Virus record (IMG/VR): IMGVR_UViG_3300035158_000911
Location: 1 to 22,315 of that record
Source: a virus
Strand: one strand, 5' to 3'
Length of the DNA: 22,315 bases
Shown: positions 2,467 to 13,202 of the stretch, one piece after another
How the letters are laid out: every line of letters begins with the position of its first letter
Position numbering within the stretch: position 1 is the stretch's first letter
The notes under the pieces: generated by a model
The model's input: only the letters and a program-made list of their open reading frames with translations
What the model was told of the DNA's origin: nothing
Database searches by the model: none
Translations under genes and position numbers: made by a program

Positions 2467-3138
2467 TTATCGATTTAACCTCCTAATATGCACAACACCA
2501 TTATTCGTTATAACTCTTGGTTCAGAACGTAATTTATTTTTTCTACGATTAGTTTGTTGCTGTTCTCTTCTTCGACTTTCCCTTGATGCTTGAAAATGTT
2601 TAACAACTGGATTTTCAATGCTGGACATATAATCAAAAATCATACAATATTCTGCCGGCAATAAATGATATTTATGATGCCGTAAAACTGTTGCCAATGC
2701 ACGTTGATCCCAAAGCTTTGGATTAGCTGCACACTCCGTAATCCATTCATCTACAATTTGATTTGTCTCTGGAGTATTCTTAAGAAAAATCGTTCCACTT
2801 AACATTTCTGGAGCGCAATGCTTTCGTCTAAATTTAGTATGGTCAAGGACATGAACGGCAATATTTACATTTGACTCTTGATCAAGCTTATCAAAATATT
2901 TAGGATAGCGACAAATAATTGCATCTGCATCAACATAAATTATCGAATGTCGAGGATACTTATTAAGCATGCTCTTAAGAAATGTAGGCTTATACTGCAT
3001 ATTGGCGTACCAATTGCCTTTATCATCTATCGGAGCTACGTCATAATTCAAATTGAATCTTCTTAGTGACTCAATGAGCTTCTTTGATAACTCTTCATAC
3101 CGAGTATTTTTTGAATAAAAAGCACAAATTTTCCACAT
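2467..3138 (-). CDS. GT8-like glycosyltransferase with basic tail
   Basis: This 223-residue protein looks like a GT-A nucleotide-diphospho-sugar transferase related to GT8 or GT77-type enzymes. The sequence YVDADAII (residues 68-75) holds the D-x-D metal and nucleotide-sugar motif. A middle segment, GTIFLKNTPE, and a WDQRALA segment around residue 143 match the acceptor-side region of such enzymes, where a DQ pair is typical. The last 40 residues are unusual: they are very rich in Arg and Lys (SRRREQQQ, RRKNKLR) and look unstructured, which suggests binding to a polyanion or membrane surface. The start ATG overlaps the stop of the radical SAM gene (TAATG). It is the last gene of the glycan cassette. 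The donor and acceptor cannot be told from sequence. Confidence 0.72.
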   Translation of the reverse strand: MWKICAFYSKNTRYEELSKKLIESLRRFNLNYDVAPIDDKGNWYANMQYKPTFLKSMLNKYPRHSIIYVDADAIICRYPKYFDKLDQESNVNIAVHVLDHTKFRRKHCAPEMLSGTIFLKNTPETNQIVDEWITECAANPKLWDQRALATVLRHHKYHLLPAEYCMIFDYMSSIENPVVKHFQASRESRRREQQQTNRRKNKLRSEPRVITNNGVVHIRRLNR

Positions 3139-4271
3139 TATATCATATTCCTATCAACATTATCTTCAACGAAGTAATTTAAGAAAAATTTGTCATAGCC
3201 ATAATTTGAGCATCTTATAGAACAAGCAGGACCTCTGCCCTCATTGTTAATTGTATCATGAACAATAGAAATATGTTTAGCACTTCCCCATACTTCTTTA
3301 AGAGCTTGCCATCCACCTTGTTGACAATCAGCTAACATTACACTTCTATCACATCTCCTATCTACGCATGCATAAGCTTTGCCATCACTTGTTATAGTTA
3401 CAGTCAGTGGAGTTAAATAACAATATTTAGGTAAAATTTGAGTATATGAAGGAGTAAATTTATGTCTTACTCCCACAATTTCAAATTCGCCTGGAACTTC
3501 AAAATCATTAATAGCCTTTGTAATTTGCATCTCTACAGAATCGATATTAATTAATTTTCGCGATTCTTCTGGCAAGTCAGCAGGACGAATTTGTACATAT
3601 CTACAACCTAAATCTTTAGCTATTGCACAACTTTCATATATCTCTTGATAAGTATCAGGTAGAACTAAAATTTTCCAGCCAACATCATTTCGTAATTTAT
3701 TCTTATCTATGATTTTTATTAGTTGGCCAATATTTTTAAGTACTCTATCCCAACCATCTTTCGGACAATTTTTAATTTTTTGATAACCTTCTTTAGTTCC
3801 TGCATCCATGCTAAAGCCAATAAACAAACTGTAGAAAGCAGCATAGTTCAATAATTGTTCTGTAAAAGCGTAGCCATTTGAAACAAGACCAATTTGAATT
3901 TTTGAAAAATGTAACTCCTTCAATAATTTTGGAAGACGTGGATAAAGTAAAGCATCTCCTTGACTTCCGACAATGCAGCAACCTTGTACTCTTGCACCAT
4001 CAACTTTCCATTCTCTTAAAAAGTAAGGTAAAGTTCTGGCCAATCTTCCCGATAAATCTGGAAGACATTGATTCTTAATTTGTTTACGTCTATGATGGCA
4101 ATGACCGCAACGATATTGACATTTTCCAGTCACATCTAAATTTAAAACAATAGGTGGTAAATATTGTTCATTAATAATTGCCTCAAGTCTGCGGCCATGA
4201 ACTAATATCTTTTGACTATTGAATGGATGGAAAGGAGAATTCTGTATATCTATTCCACATTTTTTAGACAA
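3138..4271 (-). CDS. Radical SAM enzyme with SPASM-like tail
   Basis: This 377-residue protein has the radical SAM cluster motif C51-x3-C55-x2-C58 after LNLDVTGK, and a second Cys-rich region near the C-terminus (KYCYL, ACVDRRC, LADC, PACSIRC) that fits a SPASM or twitch domain with auxiliary Fe-S clusters. SPASM enzymes modify peptides, sugars and other substrates. Between lie the expected barrel strands, such as GLVSNGY and FSMDAGTKEGY. The start is a TTG at 4271: AGGAG sits 7 bases upstream and no earlier in-frame ATG exists; the nearby ATG is in the reading frame of the upstream methyltransferase. The gene overlaps that methyltransferase by 22 bases. Its role in a glycan cassette could be dehydration, epimerisation or methylation of a sugar, or peptide modification; none is shown. 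Confidence 0.85.
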   Translation of the reverse strand: MSKKCGIDIQNSPFHPFNSQKILVHGRRLEAIINEQYLPPIVLNLDVTGKCQYRCGHCHHRRKQIKNQCLPDLSGRLARTLPYFLREWKVDGARVQGCCIVGSQGDALLYPRLPKLLKELHFSKIQIGLVSNGYAFTEQLLNYAAFYSLFIGFSMDAGTKEGYQKIKNCPKDGWDRVLKNIGQLIKIIDKNKLRNDVGWKILVLPDTYQEIYESCAIAKDLGCRYVQIRPADLPEESRKLINIDSVEMQITKAINDFEVPGEFEIVGVRHKFTPSYTQILPKYCYLTPLTVTITSDGKAYACVDRRCDRSVMLADCQQGGWQALKEVWGSAKHISIVHDTINNEGRGPACSIRCSNYGYDKFFLNYFVEDNVDRNMI

Positions 4272-4804
4272 AACATTGCTCCTTTCTCTTTTGGTGGTTT
4301 AATATTTTTATGCCAATTAGGATAATGAAAAACTTCGTATCCCAATTTTTTCATATCTTTAGGGTACCAAGTACTTCTATGTGTTTGATAATGATCGTTA
4401 CCAAAACCCCTATCATCTTTTGTTTGTGGATGATTTCCAACAGGCACAAAAAAGATTAAACATTTACTCGCTATTCTTTCACACTCTTGAAGAAGTTTAA
4501 TAGCATCTTCTTTTTCAAAATGTTCAATTATATCTATGCCTACAACACATTCAATATAATTTTCTGGATAAAGTGCATCTAAATGTATTAAATCAAGACA
4601 ACCAAATACAACTCCATTATTCTTTTTATTCGCTTCATCTATAACTTGTTGACATGCGTCAATGCCAACTCTTACTGGAGCTTGAATTCGTTTAATAAGC
4701 CTTCCTGCCCCACATCCAATATCTAAAACGGAGTTATATTTTGAAGCTTCTTGTATAACTTTTCTAATTGACCATTTTTCATTTGTAGATGCTGTAGATT
4801 TCAC
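4250..4804 (-). CDS. Class I SAM-dependent methyltransferase
   Basis: This is a single-domain Rossmann methyltransferase with motif I VLDIGCGAG, an acidic ribose-binding residue in GIDA, and a motif IV-like segment VVGIDIIEHF followed by a Methyltransf_11-type helix. The C-terminal KENGAMF-like segment reads PKEKGAMFCLKN. The start is a judgement: GTG at 4804 has AAGGA exactly 7 bases upstream and gives 184 residues; ATG at 4828 or TTG at 4834 would give longer forms but lack a good ribosome binding site. Either way the gene overlaps the end of the ParB-methyltransferase gene. The acceptor is unknown; in this cassette it is probably a sugar or a lipid-linked glycan intermediate, by context only. 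Confidence 0.82.
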   Translation of the reverse strand: MKSTASTNEKWSIRKVIQEASKYNSVLDIGCGAGRLIKRIQAPVRVGIDACQQVIDEANKKNNGVVFGCLDLIHLDALYPENYIECVVGIDIIEHFEKEDAIKLLQECERIASKCLIFFVPVGNHPQTKDDRGFGNDHYQTHRSTWYPKDMKKLGYEVFHYPNWHKNIKPPKEKGAMFCLKNVE

Positions 4805-5801
4805 GTCTGTATCCTTTATCAAAGTCATGTCCAAGATATTTAATTTGACGGGAATTTTTTACTAAAATATTAAATATATCTCTTTGAGTACATCCTAACT
4901 TCTCAAGTTTATCCCATCTACCAGGAGCAAAAATTATACGTTCAGTAGTAGATTGAAGAATTCTTTTTAAGTGTTCATAAGCTACATCCAATCCCGATTC
5001 TAAAACTGTGTGATAAAACACATCAAGATAAATAACTATATCAGTATTAAATCCATTTCTAAAAATATGTGTTCCTATATCCTCATGAAAAATTCTAATA
5101 CTTCTATGTAATGCACATAATTTTTCTCTAACAACATCAAGATATGGTTTACATCTGTCAACAAATGTTACATCAAAATCATGTCCCGATAATGCAACTC
5201 CAAAATAGCCATCATTACAACCAAGATCAATTAATCTATTTTGACTACACGTAATAATATCAGAATAAATAAGAACTAATCTATCAATTGATTTTCGAAT
5301 ACTTTTTAATCCAGGAAATGTATTATATGAATGACCTGGTTTAAGAGTTGTAGTTTGAGGAACTTTATTATATACATTTCGTATATTGTTTAATGGAGCT
5401 CCCACATTAACCATTGGATCTAAAGGCATTGATCTAATCGGTACACTTTCAATTCCAAGGGCATAAGCTATAGCTACTCGATGGTGTCCACCATATAACT
5501 CAATTTTATCCTGATGAAGACACCAACCACTTACTGAATTTTTTATACCATTAGTTTTAATATCATCTATTAACTTTTTGAAATCCTCAAATCTACTATA
5601 TCCTCCTCGACCTCCAGTATTAATTTCTTGAATAGCGTTATATGCTAATTTACCAAATCTACCTTTGAATTTATCAGAGTGTAGGCAATCTTCGATAGCA
5701 GGAATATGAGTAGGCATTTGATACACTGGAATTCCCGCAATGCCTAATTCTCTGGTAAGCCAAGAACGATTAACTAATAAATTTTTAATTAGAACGCTCA
5801 T
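4779..5801 (-). CDS. ParB-like domain fused to methyltransferase
   Basis: This 340-residue protein joins two folds. Residues about 65-125 resemble the ParB/sulfiredoxin-like N-terminal domain: a helix FEDFKKLIDDIKTNG, then a strand and GGHHRVAIAYALG at 104-116, which matches the G-x-x-R-x-x-A nucleotide-binding box, then VPIR. Residues about 175-340 form a class I SAM methyltransferase with motif I IDLGCNDGYFG (191-201), an acidic VDR at 214-216, and a motif IV-like DIVIYLDVFYH. The ParB-like fold in known proteins binds CTP or ATP, and some members act as kinases or nucleases. Here there is no ParB HTH, so DNA partitioning is unlikely; a nucleotide-dependent step coupled to methyl transfer in glycan synthesis is inference. 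It overlaps the upstream glycosyltransferase by 17 bases. Confidence 0.78.
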   Translation of the reverse strand: MSVLIKNLLVNRSWLTRELGIAGIPVYQMPTHIPAIEDCLHSDKFKGRFGKLAYNAIQEINTGGRGGYSRFEDFKKLIDDIKTNGIKNSVSGWCLHQDKIELYGGHHRVAIAYALGIESVPIRSMPLDPMVNVGAPLNNIRNVYNKVPQTTTLKPGHSYNTFPGLKSIRKSIDRLVLIYSDIITCSQNRLIDLGCNDGYFGVALSGHDFDVTFVDRCKPYLDVVREKLCALHRSIRIFHEDIGTHIFRNGFNTDIVIYLDVFYHTVLESGLDVAYEHLKRILQSTTERIIFAPGRWDKLEKLGCTQRDIFNILVKNSRQIKYLGHDFDKGYRREIYSIYK

Positions 5802-6537
5802 TCAAAAATCTTTCAATAAAGAATGGATTCTCTCGCATTACTTCAGGTAACTCATCTGTAAATTTTTGTAATTTACTTGGTTCAATTTGCCTACGCCAAG
5901 GCTTTAAAAATGTTTCAAAATGAGCGTAAGGTTTAATTGGAATACAAAATGAATATCCAGAATTTTTTCTTATTCTTTGACCAGATGCTTTATGAGTATG
6001 AACTTCGCCGGGAGAGGTATGAGTCATTCCAATTTCATTTGTCAAAAATATTCTACCGCTGCGGCTATATGCAGGAAAAGTATGCTCCATATCAAAAAAC
6101 CATATAAGAGATACGAAGCCACAAATCTTTCCCTTTGGCCAATCTTTCGCAACATTTTGCAAAGTTTCCATTGCCTCTTTATAATATACCTCATCTCCAT
6201 CTAAAATGATGAAGAATTTAGATTCAGTATCATGAATCATTTTCTCACGAGCATACCATTTACCTTTTTTATTCCTTCCCTCAGAAGCTATATTTTTCCA
6301 ATTAGATTTTTCACCAGTTGTCCATTTAGTTTCATCTACTTCAATTGGAACGTATTCAAATATAATTTTATTATCCACATCTTCACTTAAAAGCAATTCA
6401 ATGTCTTCTAAAGTATGTTCATCATAAGAACCGGTATCATATAGTAAAATCTTTCCCACATAATCATAGACAGATTTAACAGCGTAATAAACAAAAGGTT
6501 CATTTCGCACCATGCAATGTACTGTTAACTCTTCCAT
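5785..6537 (-). CDS. Family 2-type glycosyltransferase
   Basis: This 250-residue protein has a GT-A fold signature: an N-terminal strand HCMVRNEP, the DTGSYD segment at 34-39 in place of the usual DDGS, and the catalytic metal-binding DGDE at 113-116 after FFIIL. A large insertion between the two motifs (residues 60-105) is rich in Lys and Trp. The C-terminal part has HTHK and a PYAHFETF segment, where His residues could contribute to metal or acceptor binding. It resembles glycosyltransferases that act on glycan chains with an RNE-P opening. The ATG at 6537 has AAAGGAG 7 bases upstream, the strongest ribosome site in the cassette. It overlaps the preceding glycosyltransferase gene by 13 bases. 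Donor and acceptor are unknown. Confidence 0.82.
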   Translation of the reverse strand: MEELTVHCMVRNEPFVYYAVKSVYDYVGKILLYDTGSYDEHTLEDIELLLSEDVDNKIIFEYVPIEVDETKWTTGEKSNWKNIASEGRNKKGKWYAREKMIHDTESKFFIILDGDEVYYKEAMETLQNVAKDWPKGKICGFVSLIWFFDMEHTFPAYSRSGRIFLTNEIGMTHTSPGEVHTHKASGQRIRKNSGYSFCIPIKPYAHFETFLKPWRRQIEPSKLQKFTDELPEVMRENPFFIERFLNERSN

Positions 6538-7328
6538 ATTTTAACTCCTTTTATCATCTCAGGCCGTTGCCAATTAGGATTCTCACCATTTGGATAAGCA
6601 TTCTCAGTTTTTAATCTATTATGCAAAGGTAACGTATACTCTCTTCTCAATTTTTGATAAGCTGGGTTCATTGATGGCGAAGGATGCCATAAATGCCCTA
6701 CTAAATGTTTTCCAAATTGAGTTTTTCTATTGTACTTCCACCACCAAACAAAGTAACTATCTTCTCCAGCAAATCCTAAAGCGTATCTTTCATCAAATCC
6801 ACCATTTCTAATGAATTCAGATTTATTAAAAGCTAAACAAAAACCACCAAAATTAAATACTCTTCCAACAGTATTATGTTTATTTAATGCGTAAAAATCT
6901 CCTTTGTAATTATATTTGACTCCTTCTGCAAATCTAATACATCTATGATGCAACATTACAATTTTGTTATTTAAGTCTAAACTTACACTTTGCAATTGGT
7001 TTACATTAGTAAATAAAACTTCTGGATCTGTAACAATTACTTTTTCAAAAGAGGCCATGTTGCATATCATTGAATTTCTATCACAAGCTGGACAATTAGA
7101 AGCTATCTTAAAAGGAAGCACTTCCCTATCACAAAAAGAAAATTTAATTTGATAAAACTTTTTATGCCATTTTTCAATCACTTCTTTTATGTTATCAGAA
7201 GATCCTCCATCCGCTATGCAAATTTCAACTTTTTTTAAGTCATAATTTTGAAATTGTAAATCATGTAAACGTATATCTAAATAGTCAGCTCTATCTTTTA
7301 ATGTGATACAAATTGAAATATTATCCAT
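6525..7328 (-). CDS. Family 2-type glycosyltransferase, galactosyltransferase-like C-terminus
   Basis: This 267-residue GT-A enzyme has an N-terminal ICITLKDRA, the nucleotide-binding ADGGSSDN at 39-46, and DPEV at 101-104 in the place of the D-x-D motif. The C-terminal half carries NGGFDERYALGFAGEDSYF (residues 175-193), which matches the acceptor and catalytic GGFDE...GxED region of polypeptide N-acetylgalactosaminyltransferase-like and galactosyltransferase-like C-terminal domains, then WWW and HLWHP. These features suggest an inverting transferase for Gal, Glc or GalNAc-type donors, but the sugar cannot be assigned. A CPAC pair at 79-82 is unusual. The gene overlaps the next upstream glycosyltransferase by 8 bases. 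Confidence 0.85.
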   Translation of the reverse strand: MDNISICITLKDRADYLDIRLHDLQFQNYDLKKVEICIADGGSSDNIKEVIEKWHKKFYQIKFSFCDREVLPFKIASNCPACDRNSMICNMASFEKVIVTDPEVLFTNVNQLQSVSLDLNNKIVMLHHRCIRFAEGVKYNYKGDFYALNKHNTVGRVFNFGGFCLAFNKSEFIRNGGFDERYALGFAGEDSYFVWWWKYNRKTQFGKHLVGHLWHPSPSMNPAYQKLRREYTLPLHNRLKTENAYPNGENPNWQRPEMIKGVKIWKS

Positions 7329-8004
7329 CTTTGCTTGCCCAGTACTCTCTTCTTCTCTGATTTGATTTTCTTCTTTCTTCTGGATGCTTAAATTTCAAAT
7401 TACCTATTCTATCCGTATTTCTTAGATTAATGTATAGCAGTCTCTCAGGAATATTGATACGCTGCAATCCCCGTAATTTTAATTCCTTTACCCAATCAAC
7501 ATCTTCGCCTCCAAAATCAACTCCTTCGATAAATCTTGGCACATTTGTAGTTTCAAACATTATAGAAGCAAAAGACCTACCTCTATCATTTGGATTAATT
7601 TTTGGATATTGAAAACATTCTTTTTTATTTTGTGGAATCAATCTTACATGATTAGTAGAAACAAAACTTTTTGGATTACTTTTAATAGCATTATACTGCA
7701 TCTCTATTCGATAAATGTTAGACATATCATCTGAATCTTGCCAACATGCATATTTAGCAGTTATCAAATTCAATAACATATTTCGTGCAAATGATACACC
7801 CATATTTCTCGCTACATAGCTATGATATTTGATTCTTTTATCATGAAAAGATTCAACAATTTCACGAGTGTTATCAGTTGAACCATCATCCCAGATAATT
7901 ATTTCTAAGTTTTTATAAGTTTGCTCAACAATAGATCTCAAACAATCCGTGATGATATAACCTCTATTAAATGTAGGAATTAATACATTTATCTTCTCAC
8001 TCAT
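7321..8004 (-). CDS. Family 2 glycosyltransferase
   Basis: This 227-residue protein is a clear GT2 enzyme. It opens with NVLIPTFNRG, carries DDGSTDNT at 39-46, a conserved ARN-x-G-x-S-x-ARN segment around 65-75, and QDSDD (89-93) as the metal-binding D-x-D. Further on, EGVDFGGEDVDW (159-170) supplies the ED pair expected for the catalytic base. It ends in a basic tail (RRKSNQRRREYW), a feature shared with the GT8-like protein of this cassette. It is short for the family, which usually has 250-350 residues, so there is no extra acceptor domain. The ATG overlaps the TGA of the upstream methyltransferase (ATGA), with AAGGA 8 bases upstream. Confidence 0.9.
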   Translation of the reverse strand: MSEKINVLIPTFNRGYIITDCLRSIVEQTYKNLEIIIWDDGSTDNTREIVESFHDKRIKYHSYVARNMGVSFARNMLLNLITAKYACWQDSDDMSNIYRIEMQYNAIKSNPKSFVSTNHVRLIPQNKKECFQYPKINPNDRGRSFASIMFETTNVPRFIEGVDFGGEDVDWVKELKLRGLQRINIPERLLYINLRNTDRIGNLKFKHPEERRKSNQRRREYWASKDG

Positions 8005-8897
8005 TTACAAGTTCCTTTGCACTGATATACTCTTCGCACACCTCTCACATTATGTCTATAAGTAGCAAGCACTACACCACCTACAATCTTATCAATATCA
8101 ACCTCGCTCATTCTATTACCTTTTGGAAATAAAGGTGGCATTATTAATTCAACAAATAAATGCTCTTTAGTTCGGCATTTTAATTCATTAATTTTTGTCT
8201 TTAATGATTTATAAGTAGGATCAGGTTGATGATGCACACTTAGATAAAGAATGATGTCCACATTAGTTTTGGGATCTCTATTAACAAATGTAACATCTTG
8301 ATGAATAATACTATCTCGAATAATTCTTCCCATACCAAGCGATTTATTATTTGTATCAAATCCTACAACTTTGGCACCAGCTTCACTTGCCTTGAATGAG
8401 AAGAACCCATAATGACAACCAATATCTAAAACGGAACGATTTGACCATTCAACAATATTTATTTTATCCCAAAGAAAATTACTATCCGCCTTTTTTATTG
8501 GACTAAATGAAAATCCTTGAAACCAATACTGATGCTTTGCCCAATCCCTTATTTGTCTACTGTCCCATTTTTCCAATATTGTAACTTCAATCTCACCAGA
8601 TTTAAGAGAATCGGGAAGAAGACCTTTAGTTACTATTTCTAAAACATTCCCACGTTGATGACTTGTATGATCTCTTACTGCCCAACCATAATATTTGTTT
8701 TTGCCCTTTTGGAGTTCAAGAAAATAATAATTAGCTTTCTCAGTTGTTATAGAAGGAACTTTTTCAAGAATTCTTAATTCAGGAACATAAACATTAAAAG
8801 TTCCACATATCTCACAACCAAAAAGCTTTCTATGCGGAGAACAACATTTATGGGCTTGATTCATTCCAGTAATATAATGTCCTATCATAGTTCTCAT
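8001..8897 (-). CDS. SAM methyltransferase with N-terminal Cys/His cluster
   Basis: This 298-residue protein has a methyltransferase domain from about residue 120 to the end, with motif I VLDIGCHYGFFSF at 156-168, the acidic D181 in GFDTN, and IILYLSVHHQ as the motif IV strand. The preceding FQGFSFSP and following pattern resemble the CmoB/DUF1698-type group more than Methyltransf_11, but the assignment is loose. The N-terminal 35 residues contain H16, C18, C19, H22, C28 and C31, a likely zinc site. Such zinc-plus-methyltransferase layouts occur among sugar C-methyltransferases, yet the exact substrate cannot be told. The ATG at 8897 has GAGGA 6 bases upstream and overlaps the previous stop (ATGA). 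Confidence 0.82.
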   Translation of the reverse strand: MRTMIGHYITGMNQAHKCCSPHRKLFGCEICGTFNVYVPELRILEKVPSITTEKANYYFLELQKGKNKYYGWAVRDHTSHQRGNVLEIVTKGLLPDSLKSGEIEVTILEKWDSRQIRDWAKHQYWFQGFSFSPIKKADSNFLWDKINIVEWSNRSVLDIGCHYGFFSFKASEAGAKVVGFDTNNKSLGMGRIIRDSIIHQDVTFVNRDPKTNVDIILYLSVHHQPDPTYKSLKTKINELKCRTKEHLFVELIMPPLFPKGNRMSEVDIDKIVGGVVLATYRHNVRGVRRVYQCKGTCK

Positions 8898-9703
8898 GTT
8901 AAGTCCTCGATATTCATATAAGGTATAACGCTATTCAATCTACTATTCTTTGAACAAGAAATTACTTGAATATCTGGCCTTTCTTTTTTTAACTTCTCCA
9001 AACCTATTTTAAAATACTTAAAGTAATTATCCAATTTAGCATTAAAAGACCTTATATCTTCTCCATATCCTCCATGATAATGTGTAGTTCTTTGTTTATT
9101 TAAGTCTAAACCAAAAAGATATATTTTTGTAAAGCCAAGAATAACTGCTAATTGAAGAGCACAAAAACCAGAATTTAATCCTGTTTTAAATGTCTCAAAA
9201 GTATATCCAATTCCGCTTTGTTTATAAGCTTTAATTAGAGCATCGAAACCACGAATGTCATATATCATATTATATCTGGTATCGACTATCCAGCCATCTA
9301 TCTCTTTCATAAATGTGTGGCTAAGATCAGCAACAAAGAATTTTGTGGCAGATATTAAATTAAAAGAGGGTCTCCTAATTTTACTAAGAAATGTATAATC
9401 TACCGTAACAAAGTAATTTGGATTCGGCACATTAAAAATAGATTTGTTTACTGTGATAGTGCATTTATTAGCAAATTGATTAAAATCAAAATTCGCTAAA
9501 GAAGGACCTCCACCAACTATGTAGACTGAACCGTCAAATGTTTGAATATTTTTTATGACTGCATTTTGAGTTGACGTCATAGTCAGAGGAAGGTCTTTTT
9601 TTGATATGCGAGTACGAATCACCCTATGTCTCTTCCGCTTAATCCGAGGAGAGATAGTTGGTTTTGGTGGTGTTGGCTTTATAATTGTATTATCCTTTCT
9701 CAC
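8894..9703 (-). CDS. Maf/MptE-like GGGPSL protein, second copy
   Basis: This 269-residue protein carries VYIVGGGPSLANF at 60-72, then a segment TVNKS and, further on, GLNSGFCALQLAVILG and IYLFGLDL. This is the pattern of the DUF115/MptE-like group, which includes the Maf proteins that glycosylate bacterial flagellins, and of related GT-A/GT29-like small enzymes. It is a clear paralogue of the gene immediately upstream. The first 40 residues are rich in Pro, Lys and Arg and look unstructured. The start shown is GTG at 9703, which overlaps the upstream stop (GTGA) but has no strong ribosome site; an in-frame ATT at 9685 has AAGGA exactly 7 bases upstream. The reaction is probably sugar transfer, by family analogy only. 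Confidence 0.75.
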   Translation of the reverse strand: MRKDNTIIKPTPPKPTISPRIKRKRHRVIRTRISKKDLPLTMTSTQNAVIKNIQTFDGSVYIVGGGPSLANFDFNQFANKCTITVNKSIFNVPNPNYFVTVDYTFLSKIRRPSFNLISATKFFVADLSHTFMKEIDGWIVDTRYNMIYDIRGFDALIKAYKQSGIGYTFETFKTGLNSGFCALQLAVILGFTKIYLFGLDLNKQRTTHYHGGYGEDIRSFNAKLDNYFKYFKIGLEKLKKERPDIQVISCSKNSRLNSVIPYMNIEDLT

Positions 9704-10449
9704 TGTCTAAACGTTTCAATATCTCCCTTTGGGAAACATTTAAGAGAACTATCCGGATTTAAGTTAACAACTTCAATTCCTGCTTCAGCAATAGCTGGAG
9801 CGAACTCCTCAAAACACATTCTAAATTTATTTAGTTTAGGTTGATAATGTCTTTTACTTTGAAATGAATATCCATCATGCCAATGTGTTTCTATTCTTGA
9901 TTGTATACTTTTAGTCTTTAAGTCATATCCTAAAAGACCTATTCTTTTAGCACCTAAAGCAATAGCTAATACTAATGCTCCAAATCCACTATTGTTCCCA
10001 CCGTAAATTCCTTTCTTTAAATCAAAACTTAAAGCCTTTTTTGAAACCCAATTAACTAAATAAACACTTTCATCATATTTATGTTTAACGCTATGTTTTA
10101 CAAAGACTTTAATTCCTTTATAAGCTAACCATTGTTGATGAAGTATTTTCCACTCGGGTTTTTGTGCATAAGTGACCATATCATAAAGTCTTTTATCCAT
10201 TGCATAATTTATGGTTGTAGGAAATTTGATAAAAGATTTGTTCACTCCAATAGTTAATTCATGTTTGATGAGATTAAAATTGAAGGTTTTTAATGAAGGA
10301 CCTCCCCCAAGAAGAAAACAAGTTCTATTCTTCCAAGCTCCTGTCGGAAGGATACTGGTTATATTAGATGCCTTACAACGCCTATTCTTAACCGGCACAA
10401 TCAAAGGACCTTTACGATGTTTAACTATTATACCCATATCAACTGCCAT
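9700..10449 (-). CDS. Maf/MptE-like GGGPSL protein, first copy
   Basis: This 249-residue protein has CFLLGGGPSLKTF at 44-56, IGVNKS near 67-72, a GGNNSGFGALVLAIALGAKRIGLLGYDL block near 155-175, and HWHDGY just after it. The GGGPSL loop, the N-K/S segment and the GLLGYDL strand are the shared signature with the following gene, which has VGGGPSL, TVNKS and LFGLDL with HYHGGYG. In Maf flagellin glycosyltransferases the same motif order is seen. The gene is the first after the fibre genes, and its ATG overlaps the stop of the last fibre gene (TAATG), which couples the glycan cassette to fibre translation. The N-terminal 40 residues are basic. Confidence 0.75.
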   Translation of the reverse strand: MAVDMGIIVKHRKGPLIVPVKNRRCKASNITSILPTGAWKNRTCFLLGGGPSLKTFNFNLIKHELTIGVNKSFIKFPTTINYAMDKRLYDMVTYAQKPEWKILHQQWLAYKGIKVFVKHSVKHKYDESVYLVNWVSKKALSFDLKKGIYGGNNSGFGALVLAIALGAKRIGLLGYDLKTKSIQSRIETHWHDGYSFQSKRHYQPKLNKFRMCFEEFAPAIAEAGIEVVNLNPDSSLKCFPKGDIETFRQ

Positions 10450-11567
10450 TAGGCTAAACTAAGTGCTAAAACTCGATAATATCCTGATGTGACATATCCT
10501 GAGCCACCCCAAGAAGAACCCACACCCACAATATAACCAACATAATTCGCAGCAGCTCTTACTCTACAAGAAGTAGTAGTTATAAGAGTAACTTGTCCTC
10601 CTATCGCCCAACTAAAGTCACCATGAGAGTGGTCATAAAACCATCCAATTTCAGCGGGATTAGAACCATCCGAACTTTGAGAAAATTGTATTTGGAAAAT
10701 TATCTTTGTAGTGCCCAAGTTATGATTTAAGTCATATACACCACCAGGCGAAGCAGCAAACCAGCCTGAATCCCATGCCCCTCCTAAAGAAACAGAAGAA
10801 ACAGTTGTAAAAGTTCTAACATCGGTAATTCTATTCGCTGGAATACTTGTATCACCATTTACAATTCTAACTTCTGCTAATACTTTTCTACTATCATAAT
10901 TAGGAGCTGTTGGACTTACTGCTGGAGTACCTTGAAGTATTTTAACCGTGCCATCTGTATCCACATATACTAAATCAATTCTGGAATTTGGAGAACCTGG
11001 AACACTAAATGGCCCAACCAACTGTTCTGGTACAATGATATTTTGAGTAGAATCATGCACTCTACCAGCTCGAACTCTTACATACAATCCTGTATCAACT
11101 TCTACTCTTAAAAGTAAATCAGAAATATTTAAAAGTGTTCTATCTGTGTAATCAAATCCAGTTAAAGTTGATCCAGAGAAAACACATTTACCAACAATTA
11201 TATCATTAGCTAAAGCTGATGCAGCAGCATCAATAGCATGAACTTCAACATAGTTATTTTGCTGTTCCACAAAATTCCAACGAAGTATAATGAAAGGAGT
11301 TCCTGAAGTAATAGCTCCTGAATCAAGCGTAGTAGCATTAAGTGTAGCAGAAGTCGATGTTTTTACACTTATTTGTTCATCATCGTCACCTATTTCTGCA
11401 GTAAAGGTTGATAAAGTAATCTCAGAATCAGTAACTTTTGTTAAATATCCGCCTTTATAAATTCCTCTTGGACGCATATCTATATTTCTTTTATTAAATT
11501 CTTCAGCAGTTGCCTCTTCGTAGTATTCATGTGTCATTTCTTGAGTGCCGTGATTAGTTGTTCCCAT
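10449..11567 (-). CDS. Tail appendage/fibre protein with lectin-like tip
   Basis: This 372-residue protein is predicted all-beta and acidic. Residues 1-265 are paralogous to the 278-residue protein upstream (positions 12366-13202): both have GIYKGG near residue 35, a VLRW/ILRW strand, NDL/NDI-VGKC, RIRAGRV/RVRAGRV, LVYVD and a closing DVR-F segment. The C-terminal 105 residues differ and begin with AWDSGWF and YDLNHNLGTTK, a motif frequent in receptor-binding tips of phage fibres, then end in a Gly/Ser/Tyr-rich segment. The likely layout is a conserved virion-docking half plus a variable receptor-binding half. The ATG at 11567 has AAGGA 7 bases upstream. Confidence 0.75.
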   Translation of the reverse strand: MGTTNHGTQEMTHEYYEEATAEEFNKRNIDMRPRGIYKGGYLTKVTDSEITLSTFTAEIGDDDEQISVKTSTSATLNATTLDSGAITSGTPFIILRWNFVEQQNNYVEVHAIDAAASALANDIIVGKCVFSGSTLTGFDYTDRTLLNISDLLLRVEVDTGLYVRVRAGRVHDSTQNIIVPEQLVGPFSVPGSPNSRIDLVYVDTDGTVKILQGTPAVSPTAPNYDSRKVLAEVRIVNGDTSIPANRITDVRTFTTVSSVSLGGAWDSGWFAASPGGVYDLNHNLGTTKIIFQIQFSQSSDGSNPAEIGWFYDHSHGDFSWAIGGQVTLITTTSCRVRAAANYVGYIVGVGSSWGGSGYVTSGYYRVLALSLA

Positions 11568-11586: not shown

Positions 11587-12366
11587 TTAAGGTGCTGGTT
11601 CACAATAAGCATCTATTAAAGCATTTGAACTATCATATTGTTCATCTACTTCTTCACAATATACTTGAACATCAAAATAATTAGCTGCTGCATTATGAAC
11701 TCTTACTCGCCAACGACCATAGCCATGATCGCCTGGATACCAATTAACTTGTTTTATCCAACCAGACCAGCCTCCTACTGAAATTGTTGTTGGTGAGCCA
11801 TCTATTAAAATTGTAGTAGAATCTTGTCTTTGATATGTATTAGTTGTAGGAGAGCCTATCCAACCTTGATGATTGCCTCCACCTCGGCAATAAACTCTAA
11901 CTTTGAAAGTTTCATATACTCGAAATCTACCCTCAAATATAAGTACTGGATGTTTTCCATAAGTAGTATGCGAACCATCAATATTTAATCTTAAAGTTTC
12001 AGTTTCTGTTGGAGAAGGAGTCCAGTTACCTTGTGTGGTAGAATAAACAAGATATGGATCTGTTCCAGTAAGAATTCCATTTGTAACTATATTATACCAA
12101 GCAACATTTCCAAAACCTGAATATTGTCTTCGAAGTAAATTCAACTCATAATAACCCAGAGTTCCAATTGCTTTGATATCTGGCACTGCAGGCGTACCAA
12201 TATTTATTCTTATTGGTAGAGCTCCAGGCGAAGATGGGTCAATCAAAGGAATCCCATATATTGTACCATTCTTAGCTATTCTAAGTTTATGGCTGGCATA
12301 ATCAGTATCGACTGGAATTTCAATAATCTGACTACCGTCCCAAATTCTAAGTCCTATTTCTGCCAT
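11587..12366 (-). CDS. Tail appendage protein, beta-rich
   Basis: This 259-residue protein starts with MAEIGLRIWDG and then LRIAKNGTIYGIPLI, a short opening seen at the N-terminus of several phage appendage proteins. The remainder is rich in Gly, Thr, Tyr and Trp and has predicted beta strands only, with Trp-rich loops (GGWSGWIKQVNWYPGD) that could bind glycans. I chose ATG at 12366 because it overlaps the upstream stop (TAATG) with AAGGA 10 bases away; a TTG at 12387 would add seven residues inside the upstream gene. It lies between the two paralogous fibre genes, so it probably belongs to the same appendage. Function beyond that is unknown. Confidence 0.7.
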   Translation of the reverse strand: MAEIGLRIWDGSQIIEIPVDTDYASHKLRIAKNGTIYGIPLIDPSSPGALPIRINIGTPAVPDIKAIGTLGYYELNLLRRQYSGFGNVAWYNIVTNGILTGTDPYLVYSTTQGNWTPSPTETETLRLNIDGSHTTYGKHPVLIFEGRFRVYETFKVRVYCRGGGNHQGWIGSPTTNTYQRQDSTTILIDGSPTTISVGGWSGWIKQVNWYPGDHGYGRWRVRVHNAAANYFDVQVYCEEVDEQYDSSNALIDAYCEPAP

Positions 12367-13202
12367 TATAAATCTGTCCTTAACCAAACTTGACCAGTAC
12401 CAGGATTAGAAGGATCAGAAGTTCTTCCCTCCACTACAAAGCCAATTTTGTTTGACAAAAATTCTCGAACATCTTTTATTTTATCAGAAGTAATGTTGGT
12501 GTCTGTACTATCTAAAGTTATTTCAGCCAATACCATTTTTCCTCCATACTCTGGTGCCACGGGAGAAGCCGCTTCAGTTCCTGTATCATCAATTAAAATA
12601 TTACCTGTTAATCGGTCAACATAAACTAAATAAACTTTACTATCCGAACTTGGAAGAACAAATATATTACTTTTTTGATCTATGACATCAATATATCCCT
12701 CTGAATTTTGAACTCGTCCTGCTCGAATTCTTACTTTTAATTCTGTGGCTTCTGTTGGCTCAACCTTTAAGTGTAATTCTTGTGTATTAGGAGTAGAACG
12801 TGGATAAGAAGAATCCCCATAAGTAAATCCCTGAAGAGCTCCTCCACCAAAACTACATTTTCCTACTACTAAATCATTTGCAGAAGGAGTAGCTACCACT
12901 AATATTTCCATAAAATCAGAAGTCAAACCTACATATGTCCACCTGAGAACTACGTGTGGAGTAGCTTCTGCAACAGTTAAAGTTACTGCTATTGTGGTTT
13001 CAACTTTTATTTGATGTGTACCATCAGAAATTTCACAAACAAGAGGAGATATTGATGCGTGAGTATTATCCACAATACTCAAACGTCCTCCTTTATATAT
13101 TCCCAATTGCCGAATATCTTTGAAGCGAGCATTAACTTCGCTACTTGCGGCAGGGTCATAAAATTTCAAGGTTACTTCTTGATTACCTACATCAGCTGGC
13201 AT
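12366..13202 (-). CDS. Tail appendage protein, shared N-terminal domain
   Basis: This 278-residue protein consists almost only of the domain shared with the 372-residue protein downstream. It contains GIYKGG at 34-39, VVLRWTY, NDLVVGKC, VRIRAGRV, LVYVD and KDVREF. It ends with a short segment, GRTSDPSNPGTGQVWLRTDL, which is common in phage fibre proteins just before a tip or joining region. There is no lectin-like tip as in its paralogue. It could be a docking or spacer subunit, with the following gene supplying the distal domain. The ATG at 13202 has AGGAG exactly 7 bases upstream. Paralogy is seen in the sequence; the role is inferred from position. Confidence 0.72.
   Translation of the reverse strand: MPADVGNQEVTLKFYDPAASSEVNARFKDIRQLGIYKGGRLSIVDNTHASISPLVCEISDGTHQIKVETTIAVTLTVAEATPHVVLRWTYVGLTSDFMEILVVATPSANDLVVGKCSFGGGALQGFTYGDSSYPRSTPNTQELHLKVEPTEATELKVRIRAGRVQNSEGYIDVIDQKSNIFVLPSSDSKVYLVYVDRLTGNILIDDTGTEAASPVAPEYGGKMVLAEITLDSTDTNITSDKIKDVREFLSNKIGFVVEGRTSDPSNPGTGQVWLRTDL

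Follow-up and report, generated by a model that had tools for sequence, protein, structure and literature searches.

Why does a phage carry a dense run of glycosyltransferase, methyltransferase and radical SAM genes directly behind its fibre genes? We addressed this question in a 22.3-kb IMG/VR fragment (record IMGVR_UViG_3300035158_000911, positions 1 to 22,315), referred to here as the window. Baseplate J and gp25, together with a PAAR protein and a spike predicted by sequence, identify its source as a contractile-tailed phage. A tail operon on the minus strand runs f16791, f14532 (which has an Ig-like domain), f13220, fib1, fib2 and fib3, and continues into ten cassette genes, c1 to c10; an exonuclease gene begins 89 bases past the cassette end. 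The first two cassette genes encode DUF115 proteins, DUF115a and DUF115b, and they keep their place behind the fibre genes across relatives of this phage. We consider it probable that the cassette is a virion-glycosylation island, in which Maf-like enzymes would O-glycosylate a virion protein, most likely a fibre, in the cytoplasm and build a modular, fast-changing glycan.

The DUF115 pair behind the fibre genes

The argument turns on five adjacent genes:

12366..13202, minus strand: fib1, fibre protein with a conserved base of ~250 amino acids (aa); orthologue 40-61% identical in 13/13 relatives, alignment to fib3
11587..12366, minus strand: fib2, fibre tip or second subunit; TAATG-linked to fib1
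10449..11567, minus strand: fib3, second fibre; weak match to DUF4815, phrog_3398 (virion structural), alignment to fib1
9700..10449, minus strand: c1, DUF115a, conserved anchor, predicted Maf/GT42-like transferase; PF01973, phrog_4603, structure model, 13/13 relatives
8894..9703, minus strand: c2, DUF115b, second predicted Maf/GT42-like transferase; PF01973, Foldseek, hhalign, adjoins c1 in 13/13 relatives

For fib2 we take the ATG at 12366 as the start, a listed TTG at 12387 being less likely, and family searches with fib2 gave no match.

The first-pass annotation had described the ten genes as a chain in which every junction overlaps by 1 to 26 bases, tied to the last fibre gene by a TAATG. 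All ten open reading frames (ORFs) are present on the minus strand at the positions it gave, and the c1 start codon lies inside a TAATG at the fib3 end. The overlaps measure 1 base between fib3 and c1, then 4, 4, 4, 8, 13, 17, 26, 22 and 1, computed with the better supported GTG start of c8 at 4804. Gene overlap as such is ordinary in phages. However, 10/10 cassette junctions overlap versus 4/14 elsewhere in the same run (hypergeometric p ~0.0005, from the gap list), and the cassette is therefore packed tighter than the remainder of the operon.

Is the arrangement conserved? A single-sequence c1 scan of viral contigs found nothing, so an alignment of c1 was needed; the c1 profile search gave 79 viral loci, and a baseplate J search gave 14 close relatives. 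The order f13220-fib1-(fib3)-DUF115a-DUF115b is kept in 13 relatives, with locus L157 as a further case. The first-pass annotation proposed a search for the cassette beside fibre genes of other phages; its front end, fibre-DUF115a-DUF115b, is found there in 13/13 relatives. The proposed limits of the cassette need revision, since its genes lie where they were placed but the conserved unit reaches further, into the upstream fibre genes. Identity to the window across these 13 is 39-62% for c1, 32-57% for c2, 40-61% for the fib1 base and 45-72% for baseplate gpJ.

The two DUF115 genes have diverged differently. DUF115a identity tracks that of baseplate gpJ (rho 0.84) and DUF115b identity does not (rho 0.24), which argues that c1 belongs to the virion backbone while c2 travels with the glycan genes. 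For example, gpJ of L061 is only 49% identical to that of the window, yet its c2 is 57% identical; in L053 and L054, gpJ is 70-72% and c2 is 37-38% identical. Behind the pair, gene content turns over. No reciprocal best match for c5, c6, c7 or c8 was found in any of the 13 relatives. c3 is full length in three of them (L057, L061 and L064, where it is fused to DUF115b). A c10 orthologue occurs in five; it is the final cassette gene in several, and the copy in L056 closes the cassette directly before the same exonuclease. Cargo genes common to pairs of relatives number 54 of a possible 541 (10%), with a median of 0 per pair; some loci are truncated, and the cargo-sharing and counterpart counts are approximate. 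That the anchor is kept while the other sugar genes are swapped points to a phage that covers its own particle in a glycan able to change.

What kind of enzyme is the anchor? c1 (249 aa) and c2 (269 aa) are each single-domain proteins. Both strongly match phrog_4603, a family named alpha-2,3-sialyltransferase (c1 E 1e-26), and both match PF01973 (MptE-like; c1 E 2.2e-5, c2 E 2e-6). c1 carries GGGPSL at residue 48 and THWHDGY at residue 188; in c2, GGGPSL stands at residue 64 and THYHGGY at residue 207. GGGPSL and TH-x-H-x-GY are nearly invariant among c1 relatives, and the first His of the second motif is invariant among c2 relatives. Judged by motif order, the two motifs resemble the nucleotide-binding loop and the catalytic-histidine region of CstII. 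Structure models, built on alignments of the proteins' own viral relatives, are confident (predicted local distance difference test, pLDDT, 90.1 for c1 and 82.8 for c2). The top Foldseek match of the c1 model is the Magnetospirillum Maf 5mu5 (E 6.7e-6), and CstII and human ST8SiaIII come next; the c2 model matches Cst-I and CstII (Cst-I 2p56, E 4.4e-5), and the Foldseek probability of the similarity to CstI/CstII is 1.0. Moreover, hhalign aligns DUF115b to the whole CstII domain (E 1.1e-9, 189 columns), and for DUF115a the CstI/CstII comparison gives E 3e-5. On these models, c1 and c2 appear to share the fold of the Maf flagellin glycosyltransferase and of GT42/GT29-like sialyltransferases. 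The earlier description of two Maf/MptE-like proteins therefore survives as a Maf-like fold (5mu5) with a weak PF01973 match; as single-domain proteins they are not true members of the Maf family. Two variant copies were seen among the relatives. In the DUF115b of L062 (10699-11550) a long insert interrupts the His-motif region and the second His is lost; this copy may be inactive or altered in specificity. The DUF115a of L061 (10004-10987) has a C-terminal extension resembling a C2H2 zinc finger (CPIC...H...H).

Outside this lineage, DUF115a homologues are found behind other virion genes. Their upstream neighbours encode head decoration, major head, head protease, portal and head-tail adaptor proteins. 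In 46 of 62 usable loci the homologue lies at most 4 genes behind a major-head, putative major-capsid or head-tail-adaptor gene; related loci are not independent, but four different virion-gene contexts occur. The 46 comprise 27 loci with a phrog_24071 protein, 5 with a phrog_617 major head protein and 14 with a head-tail adaptor. The phrog_24071 protein is probably a capsid protein, judging from its position (a cement gene nearly always adjoins it). Among isolates, PAJU2 has the homologue gp10 together with a methyltransferase in its head-tail module, flanked by the head closure and tail terminator genes. In CcrColossus the end of a tail gene overlaps gp126, and a nucleotide-diphospho-sugar transferase and a methyltransferase come next. 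The gene that recurs beside DUF115a is a virion gene and belongs neither to surface-polysaccharide nor to DNA metabolism. Furthermore, in six other phage loci DUF115a and a c10 (GT77-like) domain are joined in one polypeptide. Together with the DUF115b-c3 fusion, this ties c1, c2, c3 and c10 to one another in function.

In L080, L086, L091 and L096 the DUF115a homologue is part of a very long single ORF (774-956 aa) that follows capsid or connector genes, which suggests glycosylation proteins with several domains. In the unannotated 462-kb phage genome LR756500.1 (L032), homologues of DUF115a (34% identity) and c10 (32%) lie ~75 kb apart. A scan of a genome collection gave only ten matches (21-39% identity), mostly on contigs of metagenome-assembled genomes, perhaps binned phage.

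Exchangeable enzymes, sugar donor and proposed route

Behind the pair lie eight further genes:

8001..8897, minus strand: c3, S-adenosylmethionine (SAM) methyltransferase with a CmoB/DUF1698-like C-terminus and an uncharacterised N-terminal part; domain search
7321..8004, minus strand: c4, GT2 glycosyltransferase, DSDD at residue 90; PF00535 E 9.6e-26, motif
6525..7328, minus strand: c5, GT2-like glycosyltransferase; PF00535 E 7.4e-7
5785..6537, minus strand: c6, GT2-like glycosyltransferase, DGD at residue 113; PF00535 E 1.4e-3, under cut-off
4779..5801, minus strand: c7, ParB-like N-terminal domain (residues ~70-123) fused to a methyltransferase (~190-283); domain search
4250..4804, minus strand: c8, small SAM methyltransferase; PF13649 E 9e-10, start analysis
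3138..4271, minus strand: c9, radical SAM enzyme, CxxxCxxC at residue 51; PF04055 E 3e-11, motif
2467..3138, minus strand: c10, GT77-like (Nucleotid_trans) glycosyltransferase, closing gene of the cassette, DAD at residue 70; PF03407 E 4e-7

The first-pass roster of glycosyltransferases, methyltransferases and a radical SAM enzyme is thus confirmed, apart from the two incomplete Maf proteins and the extra ParB-like domain of c7; the four glycosyltransferases (c4, c5, c6 and c10) are of GT-A type. This domain bears a GGHHR motif, and c7 has no counterpart in the 13 relatives. For c8, start analysis favours the GTG at 4804 within a longest ORF that begins at 4834. The extra C-terminal cysteines of c9 likely hold an auxiliary cluster. 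c9 scores under every NCBIfam equivalog cut-off, and an identification as viperin was dropped (47 bits against a cut-off of 180). The DxD motif is invariant in c10-type GT77-like transferases, and the GT77-like profile found no relative among solved structures.

In the relatives, the commonest of the 107 cargo proteins are GT2 and GT1/GT4-type transferases and SAM methyltransferases, including FkbM; radical SAM enzymes, epimerases, a LicD-family protein and a sulfotransferase also occur. Two cassettes (L054 and L084) contain NeuB and a cytidine monophosphate (CMP)-sugar synthetase, and three (L061, L062 and L066) contain a uridine diphosphate N-acetylglucosamine (UDP-GlcNAc) 2-epimerase. All of these are steps of nonulosonic acid (NulO) synthesis, and GT42 enzymes use nonulosonic acids as donors. 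The same donor class serves Maf enzymes (PMC11339370).

How might the system work? From these genes we infer catalysis, donor, acceptor, linkage and benefit as follows. Fibre proteins and glycosylation enzymes would be translated together in the cytoplasm from one operon. DUF115a would recognise a virion protein, most likely fib3 or fib1, and attach the first sugar, probably on Ser/Thr, from a donor that is probably CMP-activated, of the nonulosonic or 3-deoxy-D-manno-octulosonic acid (Kdo) type, and made by the host. Further or capping sugars may come from DUF115b and c10, and chain extension from the three GT2 enzymes; the finished chain could be decorated by the three methyltransferases and by the radical SAM enzyme. 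DUF115a, the fibre base and often c10 would form an anchor that stays while chain-building genes are exchanged between phages, and the glycan would therefore differ from phage to phage. Possible benefits include shielding of receptor-binding proteins, altered adsorption and escape from recognition.

Acceptor and competing explanations

Which virion protein would be glycosylated? We regard fib3 as the likeliest acceptor. To a fib1-type base it adds an extra loop rich in Ser/Thr and a C-terminal tip that varies, it is found in 9/13 relatives, and fib3-type fibres were seen only alongside DUF115.

Several observations weigh against glycosylation of the fibre by these enzymes. First, the PF01973 scores (28.1 and 24.7 bits) fall under the Pfam curated cut-off of 34.6, and the TM (template modelling)-scores of the top Foldseek matches are modest (0.41-0.51). 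Second, DUF115a divergence does not follow that of fib3 (rho 0.11), so co-divergence does not support fib3 as the exact acceptor. Third, in ~8 more distant lineages the fibre is present and the DUF115 pair is absent from the stretch seen; the fibre therefore does not always need the pair. Moreover, enzymes of the GT2 and methyltransferase families are also used for surface polysaccharides. Finally, the window has no NulO synthesis genes, and a CMP-sugar donor, if used, must therefore be supplied by the host.

In some distant relatives without DUF115, the slot behind the fibre holds other modification genes instead, and it looks like a hot spot for such genes. In L167 (7690-12087) it encodes a protein of 1465 aa that combines four GT2 stretches with a methyltransferase. 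In L158 (7636-9957) it encodes a GT2-methyltransferase protein of 773 aa, and a collagen-repeat protein lies further on. L165 (7613-10863) has three tandem radical SAM enzymes close behind the fibre, two with weak SPASM matches, which perhaps carry out peptide modification of the virion.

The strongest competitor keeps the virion as target and changes the acceptor. Another virion protein (the Ig-domain protein, baseplate, sheath or capsid) would be decorated, and the position next to the fibre genes would be a mere late-operon slot. Homologues elsewhere do come after capsid genes, and the same slot in relatives hosts the unrelated large GT2-methyltransferase proteins and radical SAM trio described above. 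Yet c1 is tightly TAATG-coupled to fib3, whose type of fibre was seen only where DUF115 is present, and we consider a different acceptor possible but doubtful.

Host-surface remodelling fares less well and is, in our judgement, unlikely. It holds that the cassette alters O-antigen or capsule against superinfection or readsorption, in the manner of temperate-phage Gtr clusters. The matches of c4 include phrog families named for GtrB-like O-antigen conversion, and the cargo families resemble polysaccharide glycosyltransferases. However, GtrA, flippase and integrase were not found in the 13 records (fragments, some >80 kb), and none of the ten cassette proteins has a convincing transmembrane helix, the hydropathy peak being the conserved SG...LA..LG helix of c1/c2. 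The cassette encodes no membrane protein and its genes sit inside a virion operon, and in other phages DUF115a homologues come after capsid and connector genes. The idea that glycosyltransferases here glycosylate modified phage bases to resist restriction has very little left to recommend it. DNA-modifying glycosyltransferases are well known from phages (as cited in PMC12619734), but no thymidylate-synthase/hydroxymethylase family member was found in the 14 records, which are fragments, the cassette lies among fibre genes rather than replication genes, and the GT42/Maf fold is known for action on glycans or proteins. Both superinfection block and DNA glycosylation had been offered as alternatives in the first-pass annotation, and the negative searches weaken both. 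The family name of PF01973 in Pfam would make the DUF115 proteins pterin diphosphokinases (MptE) in a cofactor or small-molecule pathway, which is highly improbable given structural matches to sialyltransferase and Maf, neighbouring glycosyltransferase genes and fusion to a GT77-like domain in other phages.

We return to virion glycosylation. Glycosyltransferase genes are conserved beside virion genes, behind fibres in 13/13 relatives and behind head genes in 46/62 other loci. The proposal that the phage glycosylates its own fibre or tail, its presumed acceptor, is well supported by comparative evidence: the conserved order, the capsid and connector context of homologues, the Maf/CstII fold and the absence of a membrane enzyme or flippase.

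Known systems and wider meaning

How does the cassette compare with known systems? It resembles the Maf/flagellar glycosylation islands of Campylobacter, Aeromonas and Clostridium in its MptE-like/GT42-like catalytic fold, a transferase gene beside a filament gene, NulO synthesis genes in some phage cassettes and variable glycan genes. Unlike Maf, the phage proteins lack the N- and C-terminal domains, form a tandem pair and presumably act on a phage structural protein; the window has no flagellin, and the cassette neighbours are phage fibre genes. Maf proteins have a three-domain architecture of ~600 aa (PMC11339370), which c1 and c2 do not have. With GT42 Cst-I/Cst-II the pair shares the fold and the motifs G-x-GPSL and SG...LAxxLG...GxD at ~15% identity; the phage acceptor is presumably a protein, whereas that of Cst is lipooligosaccharide. 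The Gtr serotype-conversion clusters of temperate phages also encode GT2 enzymes, but GtrA, the membrane Gtr and integrase were not found with the phage cassette in these fragment records. PBCV-1, a chlorovirus, is an unrelated virus with enzyme families different from those of the phage cassette. Its similarity lies in virus-encoded glycosyltransferases that help build a virion-protein glycan, as mentioned in PMC5852040.

Virion glycosylation by phages is already known, since mycobacteriophages are reported to glycosylate their own capsid or tail-tube proteins (Freeman et al. 2023, as cited in PMC12619734) and at least two virion glycoproteins are reported for XacN1, credited by the authors to other genes (PMC5852040). 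As cited in PMC12619734, the mycobacteriophage system is not described as a DUF115-based swappable island, and no Mycobacterium phage is among the organisms listed for 31 phage records with a DUF115a homologue. The XacN1 genome has a DUF115 homologue adjoining large uncharacterised genes; the glycoproteins are not tied to it. The literature searched, whose coverage leaves out most subscription papers, contained no description of DUF115 islands in phages, whether of the conserved pair behind fibre genes, its conserved-anchor, swappable-glycan layout, its fusions or its capsid-linked homologues. For virion glycosylation in general, the label little-described needs qualifying.

Could this be a widespread device? 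We give roughly even chances to a broader proposal, that small Maf-like DUF115 enzymes glycosylate phage particles in many phages. The glycan would be started by a transferase that is tied to a single virion gene (capsid, connector or fibre) and frequently joined to a GT77-like enzyme by fusion or coupling, and adjacent swappable sugar, methyl and radical-SAM genes would set each phage's glycan type, in some a nonulosonic (sialic-like) acid. Only a few phages have been shown to carry glycosylated proteins in their particles. DUF115a directly behind capsid, connector or fibre genes, as in dozens of viral contigs, could serve as a marker for phages that are probably glycosylated, and its position names the acceptor to examine. 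The predicted rapid exchange of glycan types on virion surfaces would affect adsorption and the recognition of phages by other organisms. DUF115 loci also bear on sources of new protein glycosyltransferases.

Promoter and terminator scans of the window showed no enrichment over shuffles. Positions 361-735 of the window hold a small plus-strand ORF with a lipoprotein-type signal (LLTGC), in an orientation opposite to the rest of the operon.

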